A DNA stretch of 64,000 nt from Mesostigma viride (taxonomy: Eukaryota; Streptophyta; Mesostigmatophyceae; Mesostigmatales; Mesostigmataceae), in contig RPFO01000850.1 in the NCBI GenBank assembly GCA_009746045.1, positions 106,001-170,000 on the forward strand, read 5' to 3'. A program made the position numbers and the translations under genes. The notes beneath the pieces are model-generated. The model had not been told where the DNA came from and did no database searches. It was given only the letters and a program-made list of their open reading frames with translations. Positions 1 to 26,186 of the stretch are shown in pieces (the first letter of the stretch is position 1; each line of letters opens with the position of its first letter).

Positions 1-880
1 TCCTCTACTTAACCCTCTGGCGAAAGACGAACGTGACGGAGCTGATCTCAATGCGTTAACGTAAGTGTTACTATAATACGCCATACAACCATTTATCAAA
101 ACCCGTTTACTCCAGGAATAGAGGAAGGAAACACAACTACACTGCCGTGACCCAAGCCTATATGTGTTAATTCATTTAACACACGCCGAGTGCACACACA
201 AGGGGTAGAACGCGCATAAATGGTCACCAACGGTCCAACACGCTCGGGCCGACATGGCCCTCGCCTACAGATGCACGCTGGTCCACTACATCTACTGATG
301 CACGCTGGTCCACTACATTCTACCACAGGATCAGGACCACTAGTAAAGTACGCGGCGCGGCGCCCAACGGCACCCAATGTACCACAGTACTGTTACGAGG
401 ACAATAATGTCCCGGTAGGAGCCTAAACGTAAACCTAGGGACAACCGAGGCAAAAGACCTAATTTACGTCCGTAACTACAACGAATTGTTACGCGACGTA
501 ACATTGCCCCTCGCTTTAAATAATTTATGATAATTATTTAAAAAGAAAGTATGGGAGTTGTGCTCCCGAGTGGCATCTATCCGCTGGCCGGTAGTCGCCG
601 GCCTGGGCGCCTAGTCAGGTGGGCATCAAAGATTGGTGTCTAGATGCTAGTCGGTGCCTAAGCAAGGTACGGAAGCCAGTGCGCGCCGGGACGGTCAGAG
701 AACCGTCGCCCTCGGTAGCACAGATCCGCTGAGTGCCGGTAGTCTCGGGTTAGAGGCTCGAGCATGCACTATCGGGTAGCCTACCGGTAGCCTCGGGTTA
801 GAGGCTCGAGCATGCCTTATCGGTTAGCGCCGCGCCGCTGAGCTCCTTGCGGCCTGGCCAGCAGCAAGGGTTCAATAGCA
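1..880. other. No gene seen; two short tandem direct repeats
   Basis: No convincing coding region. Two small duplications are visible: a 20-bp unit at 271-290 and 298-317 (27-bp spacing), and a 32-bp unit at 736-767 and 784-815 (48-bp spacing). The stretch lies just 3' of the gypsy RNase H domain on the minus strand, where integrase or the 3' LTR would be expected. Neither can be recognised, so this is either the truncated end of the element or unrelated DNA. Confidence 0.5.
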
Positions 881-899
881 ATCAGTGGCGGCTGCGGGC

Positions 900-1420
900 T
901 CAGCCTCCCACAATCGGTTCCCCAAACAACAAAAATCCCGTCTCCATCGCCGGCGTGCTAGCCAGCGGTGAAGGGCATTCAACTGCATTGGAATGGTCCA
1001 CCCCAGCGCGGTGTACAATGGTCATGTTATATTCTTGAATAATCATGGCCCAGCGCGCCAGCTTGCCAGTCAGATTAGCACTTGTCATCAACCACTGCAG
1101 TGGCTGATGGTCGGTGACCAGCGTGAACTGACGCCCGAACAAGTATGGCCGAAAATGTTTGATGGCCCACACCACGGCCAGAGCCTCGCCCTCATACGAT
1201 GAGTACTTGGCCTCAGCCGTGTTGTTGCTCCTGCTGGCATACGCCACCACATGTTCCTTGCCATGCACGTCCTTCTGTGCCAACACAGCACCAAGTCCAA
1301 CCCTGGACCAATCCGTGTATAGCACAAATGGATGGGCATAGTCGGGCTGACCGGAGTATCGGCGCTGAGGTGAGCTCTGCCTTGATGGTCTCAATTGCGC
1401 GTTGCTGCGCCGGACCCCAT
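900..1420 (-). pseudogene. RNase H domain of the gypsy-like pol
   Basis: Degrades the RNA strand of the RNA/DNA hybrid during reverse transcription. The frame shows FVLYTDWSRVGLGAVLAQ (first catalytic Asp in YTD), YSSYEGEALAVVWAIKHFRPYL (catalytic Glu) and LVTDHQPLQWL (second Asp), the standard RT_RNaseH signature of Ty3/gypsy elements. The usual closing motif (NxADALSR) is degraded to SNAVECPSPLA. This domain is in a different frame from the RT just upstream (overlap about 1,213-1,433), so a frameshift separates them. The frame ends near 900 with no integrase behind it. Confidence 0.85.
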
Positions 1421-2208
1421 GCCCAGACTGCACCTTTCTTCAACAGCTCCGTCAGTGGCTTAACCTTGGTGCTGAAGTTGGGGATATAACCTCGGTAATA
1501 CCCCGCCAGCCCCAGGTAAGCCCGCACACCCGCCACATCCGTGGGCGTTGCTGCGTTGACGATCGCTTCCACCTTGGCCGCTTGTGGAGTTCTGCCGCCA
1601 GGAATGATCTGGTGTCCGAGGAAGTCGAGGCTCCGCTGCGCAAACTGACACTTCTCGGGATGCAGCTTTAGGTTGGCTCGCGCCAGTGCCATGCGCACCT
1701 GCTCAAGGTGCTGGAGGTGTTGCTCAAATGTCTCACTGAAGATGATCACATCATCAATGTAACACGCAGCGAATGGCATGCCATTCAACACTTGATCCAT
1801 GGCACGCTGAAAGATGGCACTCGCATTCCTATGCCCGAAAGGCATCATGACCCACTCATAGAGTCGGTGGCCCCCCCAGAACGCGAGCTTGCGTTGGTCA
1901 CCCTCCGCCACTTGGATTTGGTGAAACCCACTGCGGAGGTCTAGGGATGAGATGAACTGCACGCGTGGCGATATCCGGTCAAGCACATCGTCCACTCGCG
2001 GCATGGGGTACCTGTCCATCGGGGTGTGTGCGTTGAGTTGCCGCAGGTCCGTCGCCATGCGCATCACAGTCCATTCACCTGTCACCGCATCCTTCTTGGG
2101 CGCCACGACGGTCGCGGCCGCATAGTTGGATGTGGATGACCGAGTGATGCCAGCAGCCTCCAGCTCCTCGCATTGCTGCTGCACAAACTCCAGCTCAGCT
2201 TGACTCAG
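1213..2208 (-). pseudogene. Reverse transcriptase domain of the gypsy-like pol (interrupted upstream at 2,209)
   Basis: RNA-directed DNA polymerase. Visible in order: GITRSSTSNYAAATVVAPKK (entry to the fingers), RMATDLRQLNAHTPMDRYPM, FISSLDLRSGFHQIQV (motif A Asp), LAFWGGHRLYEWVMMPFGHRNA (motif B region), CYIDDVIIFSETFEQHLQHL (motif C, YIDD in place of the common YLDD) and LGLAGYYRGYIPNFS (thumb/connection). This is the classic Ty3/gypsy order. The coding sequence is cut cleanly at 2,208 by the palindromic element; its N-terminal continuation lies at 6,661 and beyond. It frameshifts into RNase H at its 3' end. Confidence 0.9.
2204..2208. repeat. Target-site duplication CTCAG, left copy
   Basis: CTCAG at 2,204-2,208 abuts the terminus AGTTGTACAAGC; the same CTCAG lies at 6,656-6,660 just after GCTTGTACAACT. 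Removing the element plus one copy restores the RT reading frame (RHRL-SQAELE), so this is a true insertion scar. Confidence 0.9.
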
Positions 2209-2362
2209 AGTTGTACAAGCTACTGCTTATACTTTTTTATGCGGAAACCTTTTTGCTAAGGTTAACGCATATTCTTACATCCTGCGCAGGATGTAAGAAT
2301 ATGCGTTAACCTTAGCAAAAAGGTTTCCGCATAAAAAAGTATAAGCAGTAGCTTGTACAACT
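2209..2362. repeat. 154-bp perfect palindrome (P), left end
   Basis: Two 77-nt arms are exact reverse complements, centred between 2,285 and 2,286 in ATCCTGCGCAGGAT. The arm runs from AGTTGTACAAGCTACTGC through TATGCGGAAACC and AAGGTTAACGC to the centre. As single strand or RNA it would form one uninterrupted hairpin. Confidence 0.95.
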
Positions 2363-2656
2363 TAAAACCTTTGCGCGTTGGGGCGGAATATTAAGCGGGT
2401 CCCTAACTAGGGTTTACTTCCGCATCGAATTACTAATTCGATATCGAATTACTGATTCGATATTAAACCCGGGAAGGTCCGATATCTACCTCGCTTGGCG
2501 ATTAATTAGGTCCGACCGGTGCCCCGGCGGATCCTCCCAAATAAACCCTACTCGGCACTGTCCCCACGAGGTTTCGAACCCATGACTTCCGCGCCGCGCC
2601 GGTTCTAAGTTGTACAAGCTACTGCTTATACTTTTTTATGCGGAAACCTTTTTGCT

Positions 2657-4030
2657 GATAGTCCGGGAATGGGTTTTTGGCATTTTTAGACCCCTGAAAA
2701 TGCAAAAAAATCATAACTCATAGGCCACAACTCCAAATACCCCCAACCAAGGTGCTAGGAGTATCTACACTTCAAGGGCTTTCAGAAAATGCAATAATAT
2801 CACGAGTCCATTTAGTGCTTTGCAAGATATTTACTGCCAAAGTTGGACAAAAGACGATCATTTTCAGGCAAGGGAAATCCCCTTAGTAGTTTACCCCTGC
2901 AGGGAGGGTTCTAAAAAATTATTCTGGGGTTGGACAATGTCAATAGATAGTGCCACCATGATTTCCTTGGGTCAGACCGCACGGATAGCCCATCTGACCT
3001 ATATAATGCGCTCACTTACGTGTGTGGGTTACGCGCGCGTAAGCGGCCATCCATGAAATGCCACACACTTATGCATTGTATACATCCACATAGGACTGTA
3101 AAAAGTGCTGGGAATTAAACAAAGAAGTGCTAAACCAGCACTAACGGAATGGCATCCTCCAAAGAAACACCACAAACTGAGCAGATTTGGGGCTAATAGC
3201 ACTCATACAGCAGGCATGGAAACCTGCTGCAAGAGGCACTGATACACTCGTGTAAAATGGATGTATAAACGACAGATTTCCGTGCAAACAACATGCAAAC
3301 ACGTTGCCGTACCTGGCTTGATCACGACCTTTCCGGGTTCTGCTGGCCGGGACCCTCATATCTCACACTGGCTAATGCTTTCCAGGCATAGGCCGCCATA
3401 GCCGCATAATGCATGTGATCCGCCATGATTACCAGGTTGATGTTCTGTGCAAAGATTACCTATCAACGCATCCGAATTCACAGGGACGCTGCTGCGGATG
3501 TCCCGTACCAAAACTGGGTGCTCGGGCTGGCGCAGACTGCCGGGCCATAAGAAGAAAATCGAAATATGGCATGCCATTACTCATCTGGTACTGACGACCA
3601 ACTGAAAGCATGCAGTAATGTCCTACCTGTATTTTACCAATGCTATACATCAATGCCACCCCTGACCTACGAAAATCACGCATCATCATTCTGAGCAACA
3701 TTCTGAACCATTACAAGCCGCGAGACGCAAAATTTCCTTGATAACGGCACGCTTTAATAGTAGCAGCCATATCTTGTTACGCGCGCGCGAGTGAAAATTT
3801 CCCGCCAAAGTCACGTGCTACTGTCTCAATACACGTTGTATTTACCAGGCTATGGCGAATATTACCCCCAAACCTATGCATCACCTTCGTCCCTAAGTGT
3901 TCCCAGACCCACCGGACCACTGACATCCGTCACGGGTGGCGCGGCGCTCCTGGAATTAAGCGCCGCGCCACCGGGGGTCAAACGGGGCGATATATCGCCC
4001 CGTTTCCGGACCATCCTGCGCAGGATGTAA
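2657..4030. other. Interior of the palindromic element; no gene recognised
   Basis: Only short open frames and no domain I can name. The right part (3,935-4,026) holds three hairpins in a row: a 14-bp stem GGTGGCGCGGCGCT (3,935-3,948) pairing with 3,959-3,972, the perfect 26-bp palindrome 3,980-4,005 (half-site AAACGGGGCGATA), and ATCCTGCGCAGGAT (4,013-4,026), which is the core of palindrome P. Confidence 0.6.
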
Positions 4031-6200
4031 GAATCGGGGTTCTTTGAACGGAGTTTCTTCTATACGTGAATGCGGGAACAAGAGGCCGCTGGATGAGCGG
4101 CTTATAGGTCGTAGTGTTTTCTCGTAGCTGTTTGGCTAGAGCTTTTGTGATTAGTAGATGCAGTATAGTGCATGGTTGAAAAATGAATTAAATAAAATGT
4201 GCGTTCCGCGCTTGGGTTGATTATACCCGGGCGGAACGGGGCGTGAGGTGCAGTGCCCCTGAAAAGAACAACCTACGCATTATTTAATACTAGCCGTGCA
4301 GATTCGGGATATTCTACCCCCGGTCTGTACGGTTAGCGTCTTACTAGCATCACTGAACATAAGGGTTTAATGACGTCAGTTAGCTAGGGATAAGGGAGGT
4401 TTTGCGACTAAAAGCCGCTCTGGCTGGTTTTGTCGGCCTCTTTCTTTGCTCTACGTTGAGGCCTCTAAGTTCCTCGCCCGGTTAACTAAAAGAAAAGAAA
4501 ATGATTACCTCCGGTCCGCACCTTTTCCCCAGCTTGGGGTCTTTGGTGGGCCGGGTGCCGTGACAGGTGCTCAACTGTCGCTTGGTCGGCCCAGTGCGCG
4601 AGCTGGTGCTCCGTACCTGGGGATGCTTGCACCCCGGGTTGGAGCCGGATGGCTGGCACTGGCGACCCGTGTCTCGGTCCGCGGCCTGCGGCTTTTTCTT
4701 CGGAAATTGCTGCTGGCCAGCAAACTTTGCAATTGCCTTCCGCCGAGGGGGGGGTGGTTGGGGCTGGGGACGGCGATGGGAAAAGCGCCTAAGCTAGAAA
4801 TTTTTTCCCCACGCATAGAAACCTCGGGGGGAATGCGGTCTTGGCTGAACGGACTCTCGTTCAGCCAGGTGCCTGGGGCTGTGGCCTCGGGCATCCGGGC
4901 TGGCGGGGCCTGGGCTAGGTCCACGTTTTTTCTCGAAGCACCCCGGGTCTATGGGGAGACGGCCATAGCGGTACCGACTCGGGGCCCCGAGAGGGGTCAT
5001 GATAGGCTGGCCGTGCGCAATCGCAGTGCAAATGCGCTGGGCCTTTTTGGGCCTGGCCATGCATCCACAGCCGCCGGGCACACGCCTCCCGATGTGGGGG
5101 GGCTCCCGTTTTGCGGCAGGGCGGTCACTTGTGACAACGAGCAAGGTGGAGTGCGGCTTCAAGGGAAAGCCAGGGCGGGGGTGATTGGGCAACGTACTTC
5201 ATGAAGGGCCTTGAACGGCGTGCCTCCGGGCATGTCAATAGTGTCACATGTATGCTTCCACTTATTGTTTTAATGAAGATGCTGGTTTTTGTGGGAGCTA
5301 CGTGGGACATGAATCGGGGTTCTTTGAACGGAGTTTCTTCTATACGTGAATGCGGGAACAAGAGGCCGCTGGATGAGCGGCTTATTATAGGTCGTAGTGT
5401 TTTCTCGTAGCTGTTTGGCTAGAGCTTTTGTGATTAGTAGATGCAGTATAGTGCATGGTTGAAAAATGAATTAAATAAAATGTGCGTTCCGCGCTTGGGT
5501 TGATTATACCCGGGCGGAACGGGGCGTGAGGTGCAGTGCCCCTGAAAAGAACAACCTACGCATTATTTAATACTAGCCGTGCAGATTCGGGATATTCTAC
5601 CCCCGGTCTGTACGGTTAGCGTCTTACTAGCATCACTGAACATAAGGGTTTAATGACGTCAGTTAGCTAGGGATAAGGGAGGTTTTGCGACTAAAAGCCG
5701 CTCTGGCTGGTTTTGTCGGCCTCTTTCTTTGCTCCCCACCCACCCACCCTTGTCTTGGTTGCCTCTAGGGCAACGTTCTAGCTGCATGGCGGGGCCTGGG
5801 CTAGGTCCACGTTTTTTCTCGAAGCACCCCGGGTCTATGGGGAGACGGCCATAGCGGTACCGACTCGGGGCCCCGAGAGGGGTCATGATAGGCTGGCCGT
5901 GCGCAATCGCAGTGCAAATGCGCTGGGCCTTTTTGGGCCTGGCCATGCATCCACAGCCGCCGGGCACACGCCTCCCGATGTGGGGGGGCTCCCGTTTTGC
6001 GGCAGGGCGGTCACTTGTGACAACGAGCAAGGTGGAGTGCGGCTTCAAGGGAAAGCCAGGGCGGGGGTGATTGGGCAACGTAGTTCATGAAGGGCCTTGA
6101 ACGGCGTGCCTCCGGGCATGTCAATAGTGTCACATGTATGCTTCCACTTATTGTTTTAATGAAGATGCTGGTTTTTGTGGGAGCTACGTGGGACATGAAT
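4031..6200. repeat. Tandem duplication of a ~1.28-kb unit bounded by GAAT
   Basis: Unit 1 spans 4,031-5,310 and unit 2 spans 5,311-6,196. They are nearly identical over about 4,031-4,430 versus 5,311-5,730 and over 4,897-5,310 versus 5,785-6,196. Unit 2 lacks about 400 bp of the GC-rich middle and carries a short replacement at 5,733-5,784. Every junction reads GAAT (4,031, 5,311, 6,197), and the flanks are two halves of the palindrome arm (..GGATGTAA | GAAT | ATGCGTTAACC..). This suggests insertion into GAAT inside P followed by tandem amplification. No coding capacity was recognised. Confidence 0.8.
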
Positions 6201-6500
6201 ATGCGTTAACCTTAGCAAAAAGGTTTCCGCATAAAAAAGTATAAGCAGTAGCTTGTACAACCGGCGCGGCGCGGAAGTCATGGGTTCGAAACCTCGTGGG
6301 GACAGTGCCGAGTAGGGATTATTTGGGAGGATCCGCCGGGGCACCGGTCGGACCTAATTAATCGCCTAGCGAGGTAGATATCGGACCTTCCCGGGTTTAA
6401 TATCGAATCAGTAATTCGATATCGAATTAGTAATTCGATGCGGAAGTAAACCCTAGTTAGGGAGCCGCTTAATATTCCGCCCCAACGCGCAAAGGTTTTA

Positions 6501-6655
6501 AGTTGTACAAGCTACTGCTTATACTTTTTTTATGCGGAAACCTTTTTGCTAAGGTTAACGCATATTCTTACATCCTGCGCAGGATGTAAGAATATGCGTT
6601 AACCTTAGCAAAAAGGTTTCCGCATAAAAAAGTATAAGCAGTAGCTTGTACAACT
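6501..6655. repeat. 155-bp palindrome (P), right end
   Basis: Same sequence as the left-end palindrome with one extra T in the T-run near 6,530. It ends in GCTTGTACAACT directly before the right CTCAG duplication. Confidence 0.95.
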
Positions 6656-6660
6656 CTCAG

Positions 6661-7250
6661 CCGGTGTTGTCGGCGAAACAGTGGCTGATCGGTGTCCAGC
6701 GGGACCCGCATCTGCCCACCATTGTAGCATCCCAGCTCTTGACTGCTGAATGCAAACGCGTTGCGCGCACCTTCCAGCCACTTGAGCAGCCTCGCACGTT
6801 GCTCAGCTGTGAGGTGCTCACAGACGCTCCATTGATGGTTTGCTGCCGGGTCGCTTGCGCTCGAGACATTGTGCACAGCCACCGTGGGACCGCGCACGGC
6901 CGCCGACTGAAACAGCATGTATGCCGCCGCTCCCGGCGTAATGCCTCGCTCTCCCACCTGCCGTTGTGCCTTCGCCACGAGGAACTGAAAGGCCGGAGCC
7001 GCCGAGAACACACAGCTGGTGAGGAGCGCAGTCATGAGGATGACTGACCATACCTGCCGCCAGGTGTAGGACCACCCTTGGCCCCTGCCGCCTGCACGCT
7101 CCGCCTTAGGCACACCAGCCGGCGCAGCACCGGTGGGTGGAGAAGTGTCACTCTGCGCCTGCGCAGTCGCAGCATGGACGCGGGGAGTGCAACCCGCTGC
7201 ACCCTCCGCACACCTTGCGCTGCTAGCAAGGTGTACCCCACCTGCCAGGC
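6661..7250 (-). pseudogene. Gypsy pol linker leading into RT (N-terminal side)
   Basis: The minus frame reads ..WSVCEHLTAEQRARLLKWL EGARNAFAFSSQELGCYNGG QMRVPLDTDQPLFRRQHRL and stops being pol-like at 6,660. This is the stretch that normally precedes gypsy RT: an inhibitor-like helix, then a short beta region before the fingers. It would continue as SQAELEFVQQQ at 2,208. A hydrophobic run (VILMTALLTSCVFSAAPAF) lies at about 7,000-7,060; whether it is a real membrane segment or spacer is unclear. Confidence 0.75.
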
Positions 7251-8660
7251 TGACATGGCCTGGCCAATCAGCGACCATCGCTCCACCTCCTGGAGCCCTG
7301 GGGCTGCGGATGCACCTTCGGCAAAGCCCATGCTTAGTTCACGAACCCCCGCGGGTGGCTGAACCAAGAGACCTGTGGCACGCTCCCACACAAGCCCCTT
7401 GCCCCGGTCACAATAAGCCTGGGACCCTTGGTAGCTGACAAGGGTGGGCAGTGCTCGCATGGGGGCGCCTGCCTTGTTGACGGGCGCGTAGGGTGCCTGA
7501 TCATCGTGCTCCACATACTGCGCCGTGAGTTGACTGGGCAACACGACATCGACCGGTGGCAGCTCAATCTGGCTAGCGACGTGATGCATCACCGCAGTGC
7601 GTAGAACCTTGGCCAGCGATGTCAACTGGTCCAGAACGCGCGCAGCCGATGGGTATTCCCTCCCAGCCCGGCATTGTCCGACACCACGGGTTCCCCCCAA
7701 ATACCCACAATGGTGCCCCAATCCTCCCGAACAGTGAGGCTGGGACTGTCCACCGCCACTACATTTTCAAATAAGTAGGCGGGTGGCACCTGCTGCAGCT
7801 GCTGGAGCTCGCCCACAATGCGCAGCATTTCCCAAAATAGGCCGCTCCTGCTGTCGGCAAGGCCCCGGCCATGCCCAGCCTGGCTCATGCCTTGGCACTC
7901 CCAGCCAGCAATGACCAACCCTACCTCGCCATGTTGTGAGATGAGGCGGCGCAGCTGCTGCTGCCCAAGGAAGCGCACATCATGAGTGCCCTCGCCGAAG
8001 ACATCAGCCCAGGCGGATGGAGGAAATTGTGCTGGGTATGCTTGCGACAAGATAGCGCAGTGGTGCAAATATGCCGCCCTGGCTGTGAGCGATGCCTCCA
8101 CCGCAATGAGCTTGCTGCATACCCCCCCGCTGCTCAGGAAACCGGCTATGCCGCCACCCATACCTGCGAACAGCTCCAGCACGACGGTGGCACGCCCGAA
8201 GTCCGGGATGCGTTCCAGCACCTCTGCGCTAAAGCCGGGGTACTGCGTGATGGCACCCGGCTGGCGCCGCTTCCCCCCAACATCCTTGGGCAGTGCCTGA
8301 CATGCCGCCATCACCCGTGTGTGCACATCGCGCAGGCGTGGCAGGGGCGCAACCTGGGCAAGCCAACTTTGCCTCTGCGCATCCCGCGCTGGCAACGCCG
8401 CAGGCAGCACACACCGGTGCCTATCGCGCGCGCGCTTGTCGCTAGCCGCTTGCGCCATGTGCGCCGCTTGCGCGTCCGGCCACACGCCCCCCCCCCAGTT
8501 CTCAGCCGCATCCCCTGGCTCCACCTCTATGCTGGCGGGCGACACCACTGCAGCCACACACGCGTCTAGCGACACCACCCCCTGCGGGTTAGGCTCCGCG
8601 TTGCTGCTGCACTGAATGGGAAGAAGCGCCTTTTTGCTTCCCCTCCCCCTGCCAATCACG
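7250..8660 (-). pseudogene. C5 cytosine DNA methyltransferase domain inside the retrotransposon pol
   Basis: Predicted to transfer methyl from S-adenosylmethionine to cytosine C5. Motifs on the minus strand: I = VVLELFAGMGGGIAGFLSSG (AdoMet loop, about 8,126-8,180); IV = VIAGWECQGMSQAGHGRG (about 7,862-7,911; canonical PCQ reads ECQ, with the catalytic Cys kept); VI = YLFENVVAVDS (about 7,750-7,785); VIII-like = HRLRAFWTS (about 7,625-7,650). After a frameshift near 7,690-7,720 come ALPTLVSYQGSQAYCDRG KG, IX = RELSMGFAEG (about 7,315-7,342) and X-like = LIGQAMSAW (about 7,245-7,272). It lies between protease and RT with no stop-start boundary, so it belongs to the polyprotein rather than being a nested host gene. 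The frameshifts and the Glu for Pro suggest this copy is inactive. Known from the literature: some eukaryotic retrotransposons carry DNMT domains. Confidence 0.88.
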
Positions 8661-9004
8661 GCGGTAGGTCGCAACCTCCAGCCAAGGCTCAATTATGAGC
8701 CCGAGGCGATACATGACGTCCATCCCGATAAGTGCCGCATACCCACACCTGTCAACCACCAAGGCCGGCACAGCCACGCAGGCCATCCGCTTTGGGTCCG
8801 TGGGGTTGATGATGACTTTGATCAGCATGGAAGTCATTGCACCGGGTCGCGCCGCTGGCCCTTTCCATCCCTGCACGAGAACGGTGCTGTCGATCTATGA
8901 GCCCGCCGTTCTCACGGGTCGCACCACACATCTTGGCCAGCTCCATGGTGATCACGAGCGGCCCGGCTCCGCCATCCAGCTTGGTGACGGACTTTGCGCT
9001 GGGG
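8650..9004 (-). pseudogene. Retroviral-type aspartic protease remnant
   Basis: Cleaves the Gag-Pol polyprotein in related elements. The minus strand shows KLDGGAGPLVITMELAKMCG (about 8,930-8,982), which aligns with the protease start LxD(S/T)GA; the catalytic triad reads D-G-G here. Farther on come VVDRCGYAALIGMDVMYRLG (the family's LLGMDFL motif, about 8,700-8,760) and LIIEPW. At least two frames are used, so it is broken. The CACTA-type insertion lies immediately upstream at 9,008; the gag half resumes at 23,501. Confidence 0.7.
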
Positions 9005-9007
9005 CAC
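9005..9007. repeat. Candidate 3-bp target duplication CAC, left copy
   Basis: CAC at 9,005-9,007 precedes CACTAGG; CAC at 23,498-23,500 follows CCTAGTG after one extra A. Three bases is the length CACTA elements make, but the extra A and the low information content keep this tentative. Confidence 0.45.
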
Positions 9008-9023
9008 CACTAGGAGTTAATTT
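9008..9023 (+). repeat. CACTA-type terminal inverted repeat, left
   Basis: CACTAGGAGTTAATTT; exact inverse of 23,481-23,496. Confidence 0.8.
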
Positions 9024-9029
9024 GAAGCC

Positions 9030-9350
9030 CCCGTAACCTGTCCGGTAACTTCGACGCCCCCGTAACCTGCCCGGTAACTTCGACGGGCCAGGTTACGGGT
9101 CCGTATTCGTTGGCGGTTTGGGTTACCGGACCGGTTACGGTACCATTCGGAATATTGGCCCCGAGATTCGGTACGGCCCAGTAACTGGGCCGGTTATGTT
9201 TACAGGGGCGTGAACGGCTTCGGTTCAGGTTACGTTGGGGTATACGGGACGGGTCAGGTAGTGGTTACGGCGCCATAGCTGCCCCAATATTAGGTACTGG
9301 GGTGGTTACGGAGCCGTTATCGTTAACTGGATCGTAAACCGCGACATAGC
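9030..9350. repeat. Left subterminal GGTAAC/GTTACC motif array
   Basis: Dense irregular copies of CCGGTAACTTCGACG, CCCGTAACCTG, GGGTTACCGG and GGTTACGG in both orientations. The same motif family fills 22,960-23,465 at the other end. In CACTA elements such subterminal repeats bind the transposition proteins; that role is inferred here. Confidence 0.65.
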
Positions 9351-10640
9351 TGGCTAGCTACGCATGCACACTGTGGAAGACGTAGAAGACGCGTTAATTG
9401 ACTTCTCTGCAGCATCAGCAAAGTATGATGTACATGGCAACCCATGGAAGCGTGCGGCGGGGGCAAAATATATGCTACAGGAATTGAGAAAATGGCATCA
9501 ACAAAATCGCACGCTGTGGAAGAGCCTTAAAGTGGTAAAACAACGCCACAATGGAGGTGTGACCAGTCGGCTTCAGGGAAGAGTAGCGGTGAGTCACTCT
9601 CTTATTTTAGTTGGCGGCAATTCATTGCTGTGATGCAGGCTGCCATGCCAGCAGTCTTCCCTAATGTGTATGGTAGGAGTACAAGACTAAGGCAGTTATG
9701 TTGCTGGCCTCTGCACTGACCCTCCCGCTACATTGTTGGTAATGTTGCAGCTTGGTTGGCTTTCCTTTGACGTGCATATCGTCCAATTCTGTGATGCAGA
9801 TTGAACGCCTAAGCAGCCACATCTATATCTGGAGCAAGGCATGAACGGCAGCAGAAAAGAGAGAGGAAGAGAGGGAAAGAGAGGCTGCGGAGAAGCGCGA
9901 GGAACAGCTAAGATGCAAGAGGCAACGGGTGGAGGAACATGGCAACGAAGCCAGCGGTAGTGGGAGCTGCGAGCAAGCACGTCAACTGCGGTGGATGCAC
10001 ACGTGGGGGAGGCACATGCGGGGCAAGCATGTGTAGGCCTGCAAATCGTGCCAGGGCCCACCGTGATTGCAATTGCCGAGTTCCTGCTGAAGCGAGCACT
10101 GGCCTCCTTTCCGCAGTTGGCAGCCAAGGACGCGACAATCACGCTTGTGGAGAGTTTGTGTAAGGAAGAACCTGGACTCGGCATCGGGCAGTCCAGCGGT
10201 GGACCTGCTGAACAACACAGCCTGTGCCCTTGCGAATGCCGCGCTGCAGTTGGTCTCCAACTCCGTCCATCCATGTTGATGGCAAGGTTAGTTGTGCCAC
10301 ATTTTCTTCCTGTTTTGGGTATGACGCATCAATAATTGCCCCTTGTATGTACGGGTGCGGTCGATTGACCTCCCTCCAGCAACATTGCAACATCCGTTAC
10401 TGACGTCCACTGCGGCGGATGCGTTCCTCCAGCATGTTAGTTGCCTTGTGAGCTGTAATTGTGCAGGGTGTCGTCAGTACATCCGATGAGAAGGATAACA
10501 AGGAGCTCAAGTGTCACTGGTGTTGCCTGGTTGATGGCGCACGTAATATCCATGGGCATCAGCATATGGTCCCAAACACACTCAAACGGCTGGCCGAGTC
10601 GCTGGGAGAGGCAGTCCACATGCAGTTGGAGAGGGTGGGT
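9351..10640 (+). other. CACTA-unit interior; coding-like stretches without a recognised product
   Basis: A plus-strand open frame at 9,364-9,633 starts MHTVEDVEDALIDFSAASAK and contains a basic helix-like stretch LRKWHQQNRTLWKSLKVVKQ. Further stretches (about 9,991-10,260 with IAIAEFLLKRALASFPQLAA; about 10,470-10,640) could be exons of a spliced gene, but no family is recognisable and no splice chain could be fixed. Confidence 0.25.
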
Positions 10641-10641
10641 G

Positions 10642-10862
10642 GGTGGGGTGGCGGGAGGGAGGGAGGGAGGGAGGGAGGGAGGGAGAGGAGGGAGGGAGGG
10701 AGGGAGGGGGAGGAGGGAGGGAGGGAGGGGGAGGGAGGGAGGGAGGGAGGGAGGGAGGGAGGGGGAGGGAGGGAGGGAGGGAGGGAGGGAGGAGGAGGGA
10801 GGGAGGGAGGGAGGGAGGGAGGGAGGGAGGGAGGGAGGGAGGGAGGGAGGGAGGGAGGGGGT
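10642..10862. repeat. GGGA microsatellite with GGA/GGGGGA interruptions
   Basis: Almost pure (GGGA)n on plus with occasional indels. The long Gly/Arg/Glu and Pro/Ser/Leu open frames across it are by-products of a 4-bp repeat lacking stops. G-rich strand is plus; potential G-quadruplex. Confidence 0.95.
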
Positions 10863-11730
10863 GGGTGGGTGGTTATGGTGGGTGGATGGGTGCAAGGGTG
10901 GTTGCTTATAAGTGAATCGCCAGGTGGCTGGGGGATCGACGGGGTTTGGGAACTCCTAGGTGGGTGCATTGTTGGATGCCTGAGTGAAACTGTTTCATGG
11001 GCTGGAGGATTTGCACCGTTGGTTTGTGGCGGGTGGATGTGTAGCTGTGATTAGAAGTGGGTGGGGTGAGCGATGGGGAAGGTAGATGGGTGGGTGGGTG
11101 CACGGATATGGGTGGGTGGGTGGTTTTGTAGTTGGGATCGACTCACCTATCGCGGGTGGAGGGCTGTGCATGTTAGGGGTGAGATGGGTGGGTGACTGGC
11201 TGAGAGGATGTGGATGTGTGAGGGTGAGTGGGTGCAGGTCGGTGGGTATAAGGGTATGGGGGGAAAGAGTGGTCGAGTGGGAAGGGGCGTGGGTGGGTCA
11301 GGGGTGGGCGGCCCGGTGGGCACACATGGGGCCAGCTGGCTGGGTGGTTAGGTGGCTGCGTGGTTTTAGTAATGGGTGCCTGGATAAAAGGATGGGTGAA
11401 TGCCTCCTTATTGCCTAGGTGGGTAGATTGCATATGTGGCTAGCTGGGTGGGTGGATGTCCCAGTGGGTGGGTATGTGGCTGGGTGCCTGGGTGCACGAG
11501 TGGTTAGATAGGTTGGTTTAGTAGGTGCGTGGCTGGCTGGCTGGGTCACCGGGTGGGTGGACCAGTGGGTGGCTGGGTACTCAGGTGCGCAAGTGTATGA
11601 GTACTTGTGTGGGTGGGCCAGGTGGATGCATGGGTGGGTGACTGCATGGGTGACTCGGTACGCACAAAGGGCAACGGATATAGACATGGGGATATGCCAA
11701 TGCCTTGGGGTGAGCATACGTGGATGCCAG
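10863..11730. repeat. Degenerate GGTGGGTG-rich simple sequence
   Basis: Strongly strand-biased (G and T on plus), irregular GTGGGTGG/GGCTGGGTG motifs without a fixed period. No gene seen. Probably a decayed microsatellite grown from the neighbouring GGGA/GGGT tract. Confidence 0.7.
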
Positions 11731-12276
11731 GTGACATGTGCCAGCCTGTCGCAGTTATACTATACCTTGGCGTTTGCTTGGCGTGTCGTTGCCAATAATT
11801 TCACACAGGACGTACATGGTACGTGTTGGTAGCAATCACATGGCTGTGTTAGTGAGTGATGTTGCATGTATTGTTCAGCTTTCTTTCCCATTTTGCAATG
11901 TGCCAAGGTTCTTAAGTAGTTTAGAAGTATGGTGTCATGGGGTATACATCAAGGAGACAACCAGCGCAGGCCAGAAATCGGGAGAATCCGGACCATGGTA
12001 GCTCACATGCATGTGCACTGCACATCACACATTTGTGGCATACTCGCAATGTCTACCTTACATCTTGCATTCTGTTAGGAACAGTCGCCACTCAGGCATT
12101 CACATGCACCAGGGTTTCGCTCACTGTTTGTGCTGTAGTCATCGTTAAATCAAAAATCTTTACAAAGCCTGGCAATTGTCATAATGTTGGGCTCCTTATG
12201 ACATGAGATTTTGCACACGAAGTTTTGCGACCATGCTTCAGATGCTTGCATGATGACGACCAGTTTTGGTTGTAAT

Positions 12277-12450
12277 ATGACATGGTGGTGCAGGTGCCCT
12301 GGTGCACCTAGAGCAGGGGTAGCTTACATTCCCACCCTTGCATGAAGTAGCCTAGAATGTATTAAAAGCCATATGCCCCTTCTCAGGGATATGTGCTACA
12401 TTTACTCCCAACGGAGTGATGTTGATAACTAATTAATTAATTAATGACAT
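12277..12450 (+). mobile_element. 5'-truncated LINE 3' end with AATT tail and 7-bp target duplication
   Basis: Insert 12,284-12,443 is flanked by ATGACAT (12,277-12,283 and 12,444-12,450). It matches the 3' end of the LINE at 39-41.6 kb: GTGCACCTAGAGC.., a CCATATGCCCCTTCTCA block, hairpin ACTCC-caac-GGAGT (12,404-12,417), then an AATT-repeat tail. Target-primed reverse transcription normally leaves such 5'-truncated copies. Confidence 0.85.
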
Positions 12451-12904
12451 CATATTAATTTTTAAAATCATTATTGATAGCAACACTACCTTGTTAGCAT
12501 TTGTTACCATTCAGGGCTCCAAATGCCCTGAGGCGTTGTACAAGGTCTGAACAACCGTAATTCATTGTGGCTGTTAAGTTCCAGCTTCGTCGGGCATAAT
12601 TCGTCTAACTATCTAAGTGCAAACGTTGTTTGGAAGGGACTCATTTTGGCCTTAATTAAGGATCTGGAGCAGGAGCACGTATTCCATGGACTGATGGGGG
12701 TGGGTGCATTAGAACTGAGCCGCGAAGACTAGCTGATCTCACTCTAATCTTATATACCAAGTTGTCTCCTTGATAATATACAAAGTTGTCTCTCTTAATA
12801 CAAAATCCTAACTACTCTACTCAGTCACGCACCCCTTCCTCCTGGCGTGGGGGAGGGGGGGCTCTTACATCGCCATGCGTCCAGGCATGAGTTGTCTCGC
12901 TTCA
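12451..12904. other. No gene seen
   Basis: AT-rich sequence between two LINE fragments; nothing recognised. Confidence 0.5.
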
Positions 12905-13353
12905 TGTACCATTGAATTGAATTGAATTGTAACATAACTCCGTTGGGAGTATATGTAGCACATAGCCCTTGAGAGGGGGCATATGGCCTATCATACATCC
13001 TAAGCTACTTCCTGCAAGGGTGGGGATGTAAAGGACCCTTGCTCTAGGTGCACCAGGGCACTTGCATCCCCATGATCTTCAAGCTATGCCCAGCGAAGGG
13101 GGAGCCTGTCATGGGGGGGAAGATCAGCATAGCTATACAAAAGCTAGGGCATGGCGTCTCAGCAGAGAGTTACTCCCTGCATGGGCACAACATAACTAAA
13201 TAAAGCTAGGCATCATCTGGAGTGTGGCTCATCATAGGCACACATGTACATGATTAAATAAAGCGCATGGCTTAGCTGGGATAGTGCCTCTAGGAGGCGT
13301 ACATGTACATGGCCACAGTCTATCTATGCTACACTACTACTGCCTTGTACCAT
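12905..13353 (-). mobile_element. 5'-truncated LINE copy on minus with 8-bp target duplication
   Basis: Insert 12,913-13,345 lies between TGTACCAT (12,905-12,912) and TGTACCAT (13,346-13,353). On minus it is collinear with the 3'UTR at 40,602-40,917 plus 41,390-41,640 (CATGTACATG.., CTTCCCCCCCATGACA, GGTGCACCTAGAGC) and ends in the hairpin ACTCC/GGAGT (12,937-12,950) and an ATTCA-type tail. The 3' tail unit differs between copies (AATT versus ATTCA). Confidence 0.85.
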
Positions 13354-13371
13354 GATTGCCTTTAATTTGAC

Positions 13372-15523
13372 CATTAATTAATTAATTAATTAATTAATTA
13401 AGAACATCCATCCATCCATCCATCCATCCATCCATCCATCCATCCATCCATCCATCCATCCATCCATCCATCCATCCATCCATCCATCCATCCATCCATC
13501 CATCCATCCTTCCTTCCTTCCATCCATCCATCCATCCATCCATCCATCCATCCATCCATCCATCCATCCATCCATCCATCCATCCATCCATCCATCCATC
13601 CATCCATCCATCCATCCATCCATCCATCCATCCATCCATCCATCCATCCATCCATCCATCCATCCATCCATCCATCCATCCATCCATCCATCCATCCATC
13701 CATCCATCCATCCATCCATCCATCCATCCATCCATCCATCCATCCATCCATCCATCCATCCATCCATCCATCCATCCATCCATCCATCCATCCATCCATC
13801 CATCCATCCATCCATCCATCCATCCATCCATCCATCCATCCATCCATCCATCCATCCATCCATCCATCCATCCATCCATCCATCCATCCATCCCTCCCCC
13901 TCCCTCCCTCCCTCCCTCCCTCCTCCCTCCCTCCCTCCTCCCTCCCTCCCTCCCTCCCTCCCTCCCTCCTCCCTCCCTCCCTCCCTCCCTCCTCCCTCCC
14001 TCCCTCCCTCCCTCCCTCCCTCCCTCCCTCCTCCCTCCCTCCTCCCTCCCTCCCTCCCCCTCCTCCCTCCTCGATCCTCCCTCCCTCCCTCCCTCCCTCC
14101 CTCCCTCCCTCCCTCCCTCCCTCCCTCCCTCCCTCCCTCCTCCTCCCTCCCTCCCTCCCTCCTCCCTCCTCCCTCCCTCCCTCCCTCCCTCCCTCCCTCC
14201 CTCCCTCCCTCCCTCCCTCCCTCCCTCCCTCCCTCCCTCCCTCCTCCCTCCCTCCCTCCCTCCCTCCCTCCCTCCCTCCCTCCCTCCCTCCCTCCCTCCC
14301 TCCCTCCTCCCTCCCTCCCTCCCTCCCTCCCTCCCTCCCTCCCTCCCTCCTCCCTCCTCCCTCCCTCCCTCCCTCCCTCCTCCCTCCCTCCCTCCCTCCC
14401 TCCTCCCTCCTCCTCCCTCCCTCCCTCCCTCCCTCCCTCCCTCCCTCCCTCCCTCCCTCCCTCCTCCTCCCTCCCTCCCTCCCTCCTCCCTCCCTCCCTC
14501 CCTCCTCCTCCCTCCTCCCTCCCTCCCTCCCTCCCTCCCTCCCTCCTCCCTCCCTCCCTCCCTCCCTCCCTCCTCCTCCCTCCCTCCCTCCCTCCTCCCT
14601 CCCTCCCTCCCTCCGGCCTCCCTCCCTCCCTCCCTCCCTCCCTCCCTCCCTCCCTCCCTCCCTCCCTCCCTCCCTCCCTCCCTCCCTCCGGCCTCCCTCC
14701 CTCCTCCCTCCTCCCTCCCTCCCTCCCTCCCTCCCTCCCTCCCTCCCTCCCTCCCTCCCTCCCTCCCTCCCTCCCTCCCTCCTCCCCCCTCCTCCTCCTC
14801 CCTCCCTCCCTCCTCCCTCCCTCCCTCCCTCCCTCCCTCCCTCCCTCCCTCCCTCCCTCCTCCCTCCCTCCTCCCTCCCTCCCTCCCTCCCTCCCTCCCT
14901 CCTCCCCCTCCCTCCTCCCTCCCTCCCTCTCCCTCCCTCCCTCCCTCCCTCCCTCCCTCCCTCCTCCCTCCCTCCCTCCCTCCTCCTCCCTCCCTCCCTC
15001 CCTCCCTCCTCCCTCCCTCCCTCCTCCCTCCCTCCCTCCCTCCCTCCCTCCCTCCCTCCCTCCCTCCCTCCCTCCCTCCTCCCTCCCTCCCTCCCTCCTC
15101 CTCCCTCCTCCCTCCCTCCCTCCCTCCCTCCCTCCCTCCCTCCCTCCCTCCCTCCCTCCCTCCCTCCCTCCCTCCCTCCCTCCCTCCCTCCCTCCTCCCT
15201 CCCTCCCTCCCTCCCTCCCTCCCTCCCTCCCTCCCTCCCTCCCTCCCTCCCTCCCTCCCTCCCTCCCTCCCTCCCTCCCTCCCTCCCTCCCTCCCTCCCT
15301 CCCTCCCTCCCTCCCTCCTCCCTCCCTCCCTCCCTCCCTCCCTCCCCCTCCCTCCCTCCCTCCCTCCCTCCCTCCCTCCCTCCCTCCCTCCCTCCCTCCC
15401 TCCCTCCCTCCCTCCCTCCCTCCCTCCCTCCCTCCCTCCCTCCCTCCCTCCCTCCCTCCCTCCCTCCCTCCCTCCCTCCCTCCCTCCCTCCCTCCCTCCC
15501 TCCCTCCCTCCCTCCCTCCCTCC
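13372..15523. repeat. 2.1-kb compound microsatellite: AATT, CATC, then CCCT
   Basis: Consecutive blocks: (AATT)n about 13,373-13,401; (CATC)n about 13,405-13,893 with a short CTTC run near 13,508-13,520; (CCCT)n about 13,893-15,522, broken at intervals by CCT, CCCC and two CCGG sites (near 14,614 and 14,688). The minus strand of the last block is (GGGA)n and could form G-quadruplexes. All three minus frames stay open for over 700 codons (Met-Asp-Gly-Trp and Gly-Arg-Glu repeats), a by-product of a stop-free 4-bp period, not a gene. Confidence 0.97.
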
Positions 15524-15747
15524 ATCCATCCATGATGAAATTTGGTCGGGTAAATTGCAATAGACTCGCCTTTTGATGACGAACACGCCGATCTAATTTT
15601 TGGCAGCCATTGCCCAGGATTTCGCAAGTTATCGCCAGCGGCCTGCCCAGCAGATCTCGCTATTTTTCTGCACATTATGGCGGCACCACGCACGTGATCA
15701 GTGTGCCTGCGCCCCCTGCCCTCGTCTAGGTGCTATTAAACGTAGCT

Positions 15748-16947
15748 ATGGAGGTCCCCGCATCGTCTTCAGCTCTTGCCGCCAATTCTATTGATGCCCA
15801 GATTGCTGCAAACAAAATCGCCCACGACATTGTCATCGCCAAGAACGCCGCTAACAAGCGATCCAAGACTTCGGAAGCAACTTCGGAAGCAACTCTGATA
15901 GCTGCTGAAACCTCCTTGCCGGACGCCATTTCTTCCTCATCCTACATGCCAGGCCAGCGTTTGAGCCTGGCAGACATCGATACCTTACTCGCCTACAATG
16001 ACGCCGCTGTGACAAGCGTGCTGAAGCTCCGCAACGACAACGACGCCCCGATTCGCCACCCTAAGAGCGGCCAGGTTATGGAGGCTGCTTCGGATGAATG
16101 GCCTCATTGGGATGAGCGCCAGCGTCGGCTTGCCTGTCTTATTTCGTGCTGCCCTGAACTTGTCGAGCTGCCGGCGACGACCATCGCCAGGCCAGCCCCC
16201 GCGACCGATGTTAACGTGCAGCTGCAGGACGTCGCACAGTCTTTTACGACCGTGCAGGGCGACATTAAGGTCCTGACGGAGGCGTCTGCAGCTGCGACGG
16301 CACAATTGCTGGAGCTGAAGAAAGCCATGGCAGCCCCCGCCAAAACTACCACGTTTGCCGACGTCACCGGCAAGCAGTTGACCACCATCGTTCAACAGGC
16401 GGCCAAGTCTGCAGCTACCGCTGCGGTCACCCAGAATGCAGTGCAGCAACGCCAGCGCAATATGGTAATCAAAGGCTTCCAGACAGGCGCGGCGGCACAT
16501 GAGACAGCACACTCACTTGCCGAGGAGCTGCGCGGCCCAGCGTTTCTGGGGAAGATGCAGCTCCAGAACCGTGTTGTCATTGAACGAGCGATTCGGCTGC
16601 CAGGCCCTCCGGGCCTGGTCGTCGTCACCATGGCCTCCATGCACGACAAACGCCTCGTGCTGGGAGCACGTCGTCTGCTCCAGCCCGGCGACTTCAGCCT
16701 CGACGAGGACTACACGCCGGCTCAACTGAAGGCGAGGAGCGCGGTGTGGAACAGCACCATCGTGCAGGGGGAGCGGCGTTGCCACCCTCCATCGCCTGAC
16801 TACGTATGCATTGAGTCGTCCCCCTCTTCTTCCCCCTCTTTTTCAACCTCCACCGGCGGGCTGCTTCGGCCACTTGCCGCTTTCTCTTGGCCTGTTTTTG
16901 CGCGATGTCAACGGGATTTTCCATGGTGGCTGTACTTTCGCTCGTAA
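15748..16947 (+). CDS. LINE ORF1-like protein (RNA-binding, Transposase_22/L1-ORF1p type)
   Basis: An uninterrupted reading frame of 399 codons from ATG 15,748 (MEVPASSSALA..) to TAA 16,947. The first half is Ala-rich and likely helical or coiled coil (KLRNDNDAP.., a long heptad-like stretch around TVQGDIKVLTEASAAATAQL). The second half reads RNMVIKGFQTGAAAHETAHS, then VVIERAIRLPGPPGLVVVTM, DKRLVLGARRLL and FSLDEDYTPAQLKARSAVW. This is the pattern of L1-type ORF1 RRM and C-terminal domains, which bind element RNA as a chaperone. The extreme C-terminus (Ser/Pro-rich after about 16,780) does not match and may reflect a frameshift. No ORF2 (endonuclease/RT) follows, so the element is incomplete. 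Same domain plan as the broken copy at 39.3-40.6 kb. Confidence 0.6.
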   Translation: MEVPASSSALAANSIDAQIAANKIAHDIVIAKNAANKRSKTSEATSEATLIAAETSLPDAISSSSYMPGQRLSLADIDTLLAYNDAAVTSVLKLRNDNDAPIRHPKSGQVMEAASDEWPHWDERQRRLACLISCCPELVELPATTIARPAPATDVNVQLQDVAQSFTTVQGDIKVLTEASAAATAQLLELKKAMAAPAKTTTFADVTGKQLTTIVQQAAKSAATAAVTQNAVQQRQRNMVIKGFQTGAAAHETAHSLAEELRGPAFLGKMQLQNRVVIERAIRLPGPPGLVVVTMASMHDKRLVLGARRLLQPGDFSLDEDYTPAQLKARSAVWNSTIVQGERRCHPPSPDYVCIESSPSSSPSFSTSTGGLLRPLAAFSWPVFARCQRDFPWWLYFRS

Positions 16948-17042
16948 TTACGGGTGGTGCATTAAGCGCAGGCTTTCGACCTTCCCTTTCAACACCAAAC
17001 TACTCCATCATCTTGTGTAAGTTAGGGTCTTAGGGGCAGTGC

Positions 17043-17142
17043 AGCTTGTCTGGACGATGATTACTCTGATGATTACTCTGATGATTACTCTGATGATTAC
17101 TCTGATGATTACGCATGATTACGCATGATTACGCATGATTAC
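17043..17142 (+). repeat. TGATTAC(TC/GC) microsatellite at the LINE ORF1 3' side
   Basis: Runs of GATGATTACTCT followed by GCATGATTAC repeats, about 100 bp. It could be the simple-sequence tail of the LINE whose ORF1 ends at 16,947 (inference). Confidence 0.7.
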
Positions 17143-17146
17143 GCCG

Positions 17147-17583
17147 GTATTACATAGGAAGGAGTGACTATGTACTCCACCCTATGTACTCCAAGAGTAC
17201 ATAGGGTGGCACACTATGTACTCCAAGAGTACATAGTGTGGAGTACATATGATCCGGGATTTCTGAATAGGGGACTGCCGACGCGGTGAGACACGCCCGT
17301 ATTACATAGGAAGGAGTGACTATGTACTCCACACTATGTACTCCAAGAGTACATAGGGTGGCACACTATGTACTCCAAGAGTACATAGTGTGGAGTACAT
17401 ATGATCCGGGATTTCCGAATAGGGGACTGCCGACGCGGTGAGACACGCCCGTATTACATAGGAAGGAGTGACTATGTACTCCACACTATGTACTCCAAGA
17501 GTACATAGGGTGGCACACTATGTACTCCAAGAGTACATAGTGTGGAGTACATATGATCCGGGATTTCCGAATAGGGGACTGCC
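17147..17583. repeat. Three-copy 152-bp satellite built of nested inverted repeats
   Basis: Units start at 17,147, 17,299 and 17,451 (GTATTACATAGGAAGGAGTG..). Each holds the 23-nt arm starting TATGTACTCCACACTATG and its exact complement at the other side, enclosing a second GTACTC/GAGTAC hairpin. The unit ends GGGACTGCCGACGCGGTGAG. Related sequence (ACTATGTACTCGAG, GACGCAGTGAGATACGCC) resumes after 20,051, so the TGTCGCG elements were inserted into this array. Confidence 0.9.
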
Positions 17584-17599
17584 GAACTCGAGGCCCCCA

Positions 17600-19034
17600 T
17601 GTCGCGTCCGTGATCTATCACGTCCGCAATTCAGATTTTAGCGTAATTCTGACGTCCGCAGCCTTGTGCGGGTTGCTATACCGCGGCCCGGTACTGACGC
17701 CGCGGATCTCAATTGTACTCACGCGCCAAGTCCGCTGAATTTGCTGACGGAACTTTTGGGCGGACCTGAATTTCACTGACATTCGTCACAAGGGCAGTTT
17801 GCCGAATGCTGGTACGCAGCAAGCCGGCGAGGCACTGAGCAGATGTGCAATTTCAGGATTTCAACGTGGGACACCAGACACCAGACACAAATGCAAGGAA
17901 GCCCCAGGCGGTGCCTGGCATAGCCGATAGATTTGCCCTTGTATATTTGTGTTCGCTTGACAGATAAAGCTTGAAGTTTAGCTTGTCGGAAATTAGACAA
18001 TGTTATGATTGGCTGATGTCTAAAGTGGCGCTAGTGGCGCCAGCCGCCAGGCTTCAGCTTTGAGCAGTATAGAAGGATGAGCAACGAACCATGGTGGTCG
18101 TTGTTCGTCCGTTTCTCTCCCTCACAACTGGTTTGTTGTCTTCATGGGGTGAAATAGTTCGAGCAGCCCGGAGCAGCCCCCGTGAGTGGTTGCATGCAGT
18201 CAGTTGCCATGAGGATGGACTGACGGATATGACAATGTATTGGTTTTGTTAAGAATGTGTGTAAGACTGAGAACGAGACAAGGGACAGGGCCTTCGGGCA
18301 CCCTGGTCGTCGTTGGCAAGAATGCCAGTAGGAACTAGGTCGGGAACACACGCACTGCCGCCACAAGGGGCCTGCAGTGGCGTCACCCAAGGGGCCGTGC
18401 TCACAGCTGCTCTTATAACTACAACATTACAACTCGACACTCTTTGTAATTCGTCATGTATCTCATTGGAATTGAAATGTCTTTTGGTTGCTTTAATGAT
18501 AAAGCATGGTCTCAAGAATCGGCTGGTTGGGCCGGATTGCCTGTCATGAAGGTGGCGGTGCCATAAAGGACCGCACCTTTCATTCTCATTTTAAACGGAC
18601 GAACAACCCATGATGGGTTCAGTCCGGCCAGCCTGGATGTTCCTCCTGCTTCACCCAGGGAAGCACAAGGAAAAGGTTATTGCTTCGCCTTCAAAAGCAT
18701 CTGAAGAGGTTAGGCTTTTCCCGGTAAAAAGCCATCGAAGGGGTTATTGCTAAGCCTTTAAAAGCATGCATGTTAAGGTTGTTGCTGATCCTGGAAAAGC
18801 ATCTTGGAGCAGCTGGATTTTTTTTTTCTTTTTGCTGCTGCCTGGAATGACGCCCTCTTTGGGCTTCCTTCTTTAGTGTGAGATGCCTTTCTTTCACTTT
18901 TTGCTCTCACGTTGTTGTGAGCTAAATAGTGGGGGGGGAGGTGGCATATCTCACACATGATTACTGCTGATAGTGGATGCATTCCAAGTAGCGGTAATGA
19001 CCAGTCCAGGATGATATGGCACGCAAACGCGACA
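17600..19034 (+). mobile_element. TGTCGCG..CGCGACA element, long copy
   Basis: 1,435 bp beginning TGTCGCGTCC and ending AAACGCGACA, a 7-bp terminal inverted repeat that also gives the TG..CA ends typical of LTRs. A second copy follows head-to-tail after GC. The pair is flanked by CCCA (17,596-17,599 and 20,051-20,054), a candidate 4-bp target duplication. No significant protein. Either a solo-LTR-like repeat or a small TIR element. Confidence 0.65.
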
Positions 19035-19036
19035 GC

Positions 19037-20050: not shown

Positions 20051-20054
20051 CCCA

Positions 20055-21055: not shown

Positions 21056-21059
21056 CATG

Positions 21060-23465: not shown

Positions 23466-23480
23466 CGTTTACGCCCCATA

Positions 23481-23496
23481 AAATTAACTCCTAGTG
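23481..23496 (-). repeat. CACTA-type terminal inverted repeat, right
   Basis: Reads CACTAGGAGTTAATTT on the minus strand. It lies in the reading frame of the gypsy gag/pro transition, which it ends. Confidence 0.8.
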
Positions 23497-26141: not shown

Positions 26142-26186
26142 CAAGCTTCGTGCTTGTGCTCTCGTGAGCACCGTTTCTGCAACCAA

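Follow-up and report, generated by a model that had tools for sequence, protein, structure and literature searches.

Methyltransferase domain and pol of the window copy

The DNA analysed here (the window) is a 64,000-nt stretch of the genome of the alga Mesostigma viride (contig RPFO01000850.1, positions 106,001 to 170,000), whose minus strand carries a decayed relic of a Ty3/gypsy long terminal repeat (LTR) retrotransposon; in the pol region of this copy, a C5 cytosine methyltransferase (MTase) domain lies between the protease and the reverse transcriptase (RT). This arrangement on a single strand had been claimed in the original prediction and is borne out by matches to PF00145 and RVT_1 and by the conserved motifs. 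The MTase occupies open reading frame (ORF) 7622–8692 (minus strand), in which an N-terminal extension is followed, in one frame, by motifs I (LELFAGMGGG), IV (AGWECQGMS), VI (FENV) and VIII (HRLRAFW). Compared with DNA methyltransferase profiles, as had been proposed, the translated ORF matched PF00145 (E = 1.2e-11, 45 bits, cut-off 22), phrog_116 (E = 3.2e-18) and, below the curated cut-off of 100.65, TIGR00675 (2.1e-10, 40.8 bits); when all 962 six-frame ORFs of the window were screened with a profile of 36 viral-contig MTases, it was recovered at 2.9e-17, the runner-up having an E-value of 2.2. The above-cut-off match, motif I, the catalytic Cys and ENV mark it as a member of PF00145.

The C-terminal part of the domain, with motif IX- and X-like stretches (7236–7621, minus strand), lies in the next frame, within ORF 7035–7766, which matched none of the profiles tried (Pfam and the viral-contig MTase profile); the assignment is supported by the 63% identity of this part, over 119 codons, to an open copy of a second family of the element (family B, described below). 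Among the motifs initially reported, I, IV, VI and VIII are accordingly found together in frame, and the IX- and X-like ones only in another frame. The further claim that no gene boundary separates the MTase from its neighbours holds in the sense that the domain is almost certainly a built-in part of pol, but the pol of the window copy is not a single open frame; the interval first assigned to the feature, 7250–8660, leaves gag, RT and RNase H outside.

The other pol segments, all on the minus strand, are a retropepsin-like protease with one internal frame change (8592–9007; DGGAG; ALIGMDVMYRLG), the RT (1440–2203; YIDD; RVT_1, 1.1e-30), for which the closest solved structure is Ty3 RT (4ol8, 5.2e-44), and RNase H (985–1439; RT_RNaseH, PF17917, 1.3e-39). 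The protease region gave no match in Pfam and is assigned from its motif and its resemblance to other copies, being 42–55% identical to the corresponding stretch of family B. Between the MTase and the RT lie a linker that leads into the RT (6656–7338, minus strand; ..QPLFRRQHRL, by ORF reading) and a hydrophobic, possibly membrane-spanning segment (6988–7044, minus strand; VILMTALLTSCVFSAAPAF) with a similar counterpart in family B. Five frame changes separate the protease from RNase H.

Copies and families in the genome

At least 117 matches to the MTase ORF, in two families, were found in the assembly to which the window belongs (440 Mb in 2243 contigs), a lower bound given that 114 of 495 candidates were scored, a few elements yielding two rows. 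Family A, to which the window copy belongs, is 79–96% identical to it where the frame is kept; family B is 56% identical over the MTase ORF and 67% in the catalytic core, and accounts for 74 of the scored MTase rows, 28 of them within a frame of 2074 aa. In the RT search, 102 rows were scored out of 3759 candidates, and all of these rows are near-identical family B copies, 39 of them in the 2074-aa frame. A candidate third family with 4–5 TAG stops (five rows, 58–69%) was rejected, as all four of the rows that were read proved to be frame-slipped family A copies.

The full 2074-aa pol was present in four of the nine family B regions read and has the order CCHC-protease-methyltransferase-RT-RNaseH-integrase-PHD finger (the protease by motif and similarity). 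Pfam analysis of one such pol identified CCHC (below cut-off), the MTase (residues 550–690), RT, RNase H, H2C2, rve and a C-terminal PHD finger (8.5e-9), and no reader domain beyond the PHD finger. Integrase and PHD finger (1e-8) are also encoded at locus L137, which is 99.2% identical to the window over positions 985–1600, so that family A has them too. With gag, the protease-RT-RNaseH-integrase order and a Ty3-type RT, family B has the features of Ty3/gypsy elements; at the one locus measured, on contig C1579, two direct LTRs of 1140 bp are 99.74% identical. A target-site duplication could be made out at none of three family B loci; at one of them the 5' side includes masked letters.

The presence of copies with the protease-MTase-RT order on other contigs, a check suggested at the outset, was thus verified, many of these copies having the 2074-aa frame. 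The complementary question, whether other copies lack the domain, was answered largely in the negative for the copies scored, given that many keep the MTase inside the 2074-aa pol and that, among five copies with shorter RT frames that were read upstream, four contain MTase sequence (one complete, three truncated); RT lineages more distant than those scored may lack the domain. A frame break between the MTase and the RT, as at locus L132, recurs among the copies, perhaps through a mutation that they share or as a signal for expression.

Judged from the sequences of its copies, family B has evidently spread recently. Part of the identical copies could be assembly duplicates, in which case the extent of this spread would be overstated: short contigs, several of them smaller than 45 kb, account for many rows, and all 102 scored RT rows print as 100%. 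Many other copies, however, are on different multi-megabase contigs, and the nine family B copies that were read are distinguished from one another by small indels, inserts and truncations, so that we regard such inflation as rather unlikely.

Selection on the methyltransferase domain

MTase cores were compared across 42 loci of the same genome (L093–L134, the window's included), of which 35 were complete and in frame and seven, being partial, were left out. The 35 complete cores comprise 10 distinct sequences, all with motif I, WECQ, ENV and motif VIII and none with a stop. In every one of the 35, motif IV has Glu-Cys instead of the Pro-Cys dipeptide; the ECQ motif, singled out as unusual in the original prediction, is therefore fixed among the copies examined. 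The canonical catalytic loop has Pro ahead of the catalytic Cys. Exact DNA matches elsewhere to two WECQ patterns (two to one pattern in IMG/VR, five to the other in species genomes) were due to chance, none lying in an MTase.

Between families A and B, the proportions of differences at synonymous (pS) and nonsynonymous (pN) sites were 0.796 and 0.21 in the MTase core, 0.795 and 0.092 in RT-RNase H, 0.796 and 0.174 in the integrase, 0.82 and 0.156 in the PHD finger, and 0.642 and 0.251 in the C-terminal part of the MTase. Synonymous sites are equally saturated in the MTase core, RT-RNase H, integrase and PHD finger, which suggests that the MTase is as old within the element as its core enzymes. 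Given saturated pS and unsaturated pN, the MTase has been kept by selection, under a constraint weaker than that on RT, and its status as a selected, built-in domain of pol is in very little doubt. Within family A, the ratio of nonsynonymous to synonymous substitution rates (dN/dS) in the eight pairs with pS > 0.04, seven of which include L117, ranged from 0.27 to 0.78, as would be expected for decaying copies.

These comparisons bear on two alternatives. One is that the MTase is a host gene, or a fragment of one, that landed in a single copy by chance, as the single copy within the window might suggest; it is refuted by dozens of copies in two families that have the domain at the same position and in the same order, at saturated synonymous divergence. 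The other MTase genes examined in this genome, L149 and the DNMT1-like L150, are far from the MTase of the element, and we give chance insertion practically no credence. The second alternative, that the domain is catalytically dead and serves Pol only in a structural or DNA-binding capacity, would account for the Glu that replaces the usual Pro beside the catalytic Cys. A dead enzyme should, however, drift at its catalytic residues, and the conservation of the catalytic Cys, the ENV Glu, the motif VIII Arg residues and motif I between families A and B despite synonymous saturation thus counts against this explanation, which we consider quite unlikely.

Affinity of the enzyme

The enzyme looks DNMT3/DRM-like, although it is weakly placed. 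In a phylogenetic tree that held no eukaryotic DNMT3 and no DNMT2, the MTase of the element grouped, on a long branch, with DNMT3-like phage enzymes (support 89/95, under the program's star). Among solved structures in the PDB, the best match for the family B domain was plant DRM (4onj, 7.6e-5), with DRM2 at 1.4e-3. Foldseek searches with predicted models placed DNMT3A/B on top of both lists; the alignments behind the models are rich in DNMT3-like viral rows, which may bias this result. A Dcm/HhaI-type enzyme in place of DNMT3 is a further candidate: HhaI comes first in the PDB for the piece from the window (E = 0.014); for the family B domain, DRM comes first instead, and in a fold comparison of the model (VIA-align) M.HhaI and DNMT3A tie.

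A related alternative retains the MTase fold and changes the substrate, the enzyme acting on RNA (genomic RNA, the tRNA primer or an RNA-DNA hybrid) and not on double-stranded DNA. The altered motif IV in all complete cores and the position of the MTase next to the RT would fit such a role, and RNA methylation was raised by de Mendoza et al. (2018; PMC5890265) for SymbioLINE-Dnmt, a DNMT that was silent on DNA in yeast. Against this, the nearest relatives by sequence and by the tree, from which DNMT2 was absent, are DNMT3/DRM and DNMT3-like phage enzymes, and no DNMT2 appeared among PDB matches with E-values of at most 0.1. Action on RNA thus seems improbable, and a DNMT3/DRM-like DNA methyltransferase remains the preferred reading.

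An origin from phages or bacteria by close match was dropped, as only distant relatives were found among phages, plasmids and IMG/VR. In IMG/VR, two protein queries and the RT revealed no encoded relative. An alignment with phage rows brought up 171 distant relatives, of which 80 were kept, with best segments 25–45% identical; tblastn against phages gave 30–45% identity at the best places among the 20 matches listed, and against plasmids about 31–36% among the 20 listed.

The MTase of the element also looks unlike the other MTases of its own genome that were examined. These include HhaI-like C5 MTase ORFs that form a multi-copy family and have the motif GFPCQ, many being 304–364 aa long (e.g. 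L142–L148, L151, L152); identical rows of this family repeat on short and long contigs, five members in the tree are separate from the MTase of the element, and the carrier may be a virus-like insert, a DNA transposon or something else. Two further genes are L150 (G000:C1402:3168500-3171000), which is DNMT1-like and whose match to BAH falls slightly short of the cut-off, and L149 (G000:C1562:57800-60500), a second C5 MTase gene; together they indicate that the host probably has maintenance methylation of its own.

Decay of the window copy and its insertions

The gag ORF of the window copy (23533–25917, minus strand), with a CCHC zinc knuckle (PF00098, E = 0.0026, below cut-off), lies 14.5 kb from the protease, and its N-terminus runs on in another frame (ORF 25512–26186). 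Residues 158–766 are 99.5% identical to the gag that adjoins protease and MTase in L127 and L128. Locus L134, which has neither of the two inserts described below and some frame slips, is 96.8% identical to the window in gag, 98.6% in RT and 99.1% in RNase H, and there gag adjoins the protease with all domains in order; hence the distant gag belongs to the window element. In L134, a 1151-nt direct repeat (7224–8374 and 8751–9901, 99.7% identical) lies directly after RNase H, an arrangement seen in this family A locus.

Gag and protease are separated by a CACTA-like element of 14.5 kb (9008–23496), with perfect 16-bp terminal inverted repeats, CACTAGGAGTTAATTT, and the 2-bp target repeat AC; with up to two mismatches allowed, CACTAGGAGTTAATTT has only two matches in the window, inverted to each other. 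When the flanks are rejoined, the sequence GTCWGPMV|CPSAKSVTKLDGGAG is open into the protease frame; as one in three joins is in frame by chance, the decisive evidence is L134. The rejoined frame differs from that of the gag ORF (795 aa), whose stop lies shortly before the join; in family B, gag and pol likewise overlap in different frames. The element carries GTAACC-type subterminal repeats, microsatellite blocks and ORF 15730–16944, and no transposase was recognised in those of its ORFs that were scanned.

A second insert, a nested foldback-like element of 4.4 kb (2209–6655) with inverted-repeat arms of ~450 nt, lies between the MTase and the RT and is flanked by the 5-bp target repeat CTGAG (2204–2208 and 6656–6660); the rejoined flanks, LFRRQHRL|SQAELEFVQQQC, stay in frame. 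Its long arms are internally palindromic, and it contains internal exact repeats of at least 300 nt.

In a blastn comparison of window positions 1–1600 with L137, likeness ends at 985, and the integrase and PHD finger are therefore missing from the window copy. For the same reason, a 3' LTR starting at ~503 was refuted. Elsewhere in the window, a 700-nt direct repeat (44491–45190 and 51164–51863, 99.86% identical, 6.7 kb apart) has ends other than TG..CA, and no pol was recognised between its copies among the ORFs scanned.

A possible role in marking new copies

The explanation that we favour overall, and consider probable, is a Ty3/gypsy element that has a Pol-borne MTase between protease and RT and a PHD finger after the integrase, and that marks its new copies. 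Methylation of DNA by the MTase appears likely, only slightly less so than the explanation as a whole, and the chances that the main target is the element's own DNA seem about even. The MTase would be made with every Gag-Pol and packaged in the particle, and could methylate the new complementary DNA (cDNA), or the DNA around the insertion site, either ahead of integration or in the course of it. Each new copy would in this way arrive bearing 5-methylcytosine, which might shield it from detection, or from mutation, as naked foreign DNA; a host maintenance methylase could keep the mark, so that the element stays silent enough for its host to survive. The probable role of the PHD finger is to direct integration towards chromatin of a given H3 tail state or to hold the complex there; its sequence resembles the LLCDxC type, a known reader of unmodified H3K4.

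CpG sites were compared between ten of the thirty family A loci of 4 kb, with their flanks. At CpG, transitions were 6.3 times as frequent as at the rest (0.0139 vs 0.0022 per column) and transversions 2.4 times, with a counting bias that contributes to, and acts on, both classes. The CpG excess fits past CG methylation of the copies, by whatever enzyme.

Several observations weigh against the favoured explanation. The CpG signal does not tell which enzyme methylates, and the set of 42 loci that yielded the 35 complete cores leans to well-kept copies. Frames of 1041 aa contain 26 of the 102 RT rows, with others in frames of further lengths, and in L132, which is of the 1041-aa class, a break after the MTase and before the RT splits the frame into ORFs of 1042 and 1041 aa, so that many copies make no single continuous Pol as read; L155 is rearranged and has lost the domain, with no MTase sequence in the 2.8 kb read. 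The motif IV position occupied by Glu here is Pro in all 94 motif-IV-like matches from 87 phage or viral loci. Finally, KnitGypsy-Dnmt3, a similar element discussed below, gave no methylation in yeast, a result that its authors call inconclusive (PMC5890265).

Cytosine methylation is usually a weapon of the host against transposons, and an element with a selected, recently multiplied MTase inverts this picture. The near-identical copies, the relic family, the odd loop and the PHD finger make self-marking of cDNA directly testable. More speculatively, and in our view doubtful, an element with a 5-methylcytosine writer and a histone-tail reader might install its own heritable silent state at integration. 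If so, the PHD finger would pick chromatin by its H3 state and the altered-loop DNMT3-like domain would pre-mark the new copy, one protein thereby mimicking the pairing of histone reader and methylase in host DNMT3 enzymes.

Comparison with known systems

Chromoviruses are Ty3/gypsy elements with a chromodomain after the integrase. The element described here similarly closes Pol with a domain of the histone-reader type, which is a PHD finger in place of the chromodomain, and differs in having an MTase. Plant DRM2/NtDRM and animal DNMT3 have a similar fold, and DRM is the best solved relative of the family B domain; however, the motifs of the element run from I to X whereas those of DRM are rearranged, and the element is distinguished from DRM2/NtDRM and DNMT3 by Glu for Pro before the catalytic Cys and by a PHD finger as its only reader domain by Pfam.

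Retrotransposon C5 MTases were found in the literature in PMC5890265 and in works citing it; the parts of the Ectocarpus and land-plant transposable-element literature consulted describe no gypsy element with a C5 MTase. A 2025 survey (PMC12344493) cites PMC5890265 for retrotransposon DNMT3s, with LTR Copia and DIRS as the elements named, and also includes ChloroDNMT and orphan groups in its list. In a 2019 opinion article (PMC6338049), Ty3/Gypsy and DIRS elements encoding DAM or DCM are stated to occur in stramenopiles, red algae, green algae and charophytes, which argues against any novelty in the mere presence of an MTase element in a green alga.

According to the description in PMC5890265, Symbiodinium has DNMTs in DIRS and LINE elements, and the DNMT of SymbioDIRS, encoded in the same ORF as the RT, produces CG methylation in yeast. 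SymbioDIRS-Dnmt3 and SymbioLINE-Dnmt resemble the present element as retroelements bearing a C5 methyltransferase, but belong to the DIRS (tyrosine recombinase) and LINE classes, whereas the element here is Ty3/gypsy with an rve integrase.

The closest published case that we found is KnitGypsy-Dnmt3, a DNMT3 in the Gypsy Pol of Klebsormidium nitens (PMC5890265). The two have in common the Gypsy domain composition, a DNMT in the Pol polyprotein ORF, its relationship to DNMT3 and selection on the domain. The repeats of KnitGypsy are DIRS-like (Fig. 4 legend of PMC5890265), in contrast to the direct 1.1-kb LTRs found at one locus here, and the element here has a PHD finger and WECQ, the main text of PMC5890265 naming neither 'PHD' nor 'protease' and its passages on KnitGypsy giving neither motif IV nor the place of the DNMT relative to the protease. 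The two are set apart by the published description, and because of its direct LTRs, PHD finger and WECQ loop we do not call the Mesostigma element a member of KnitGypsy-Dnmt3.
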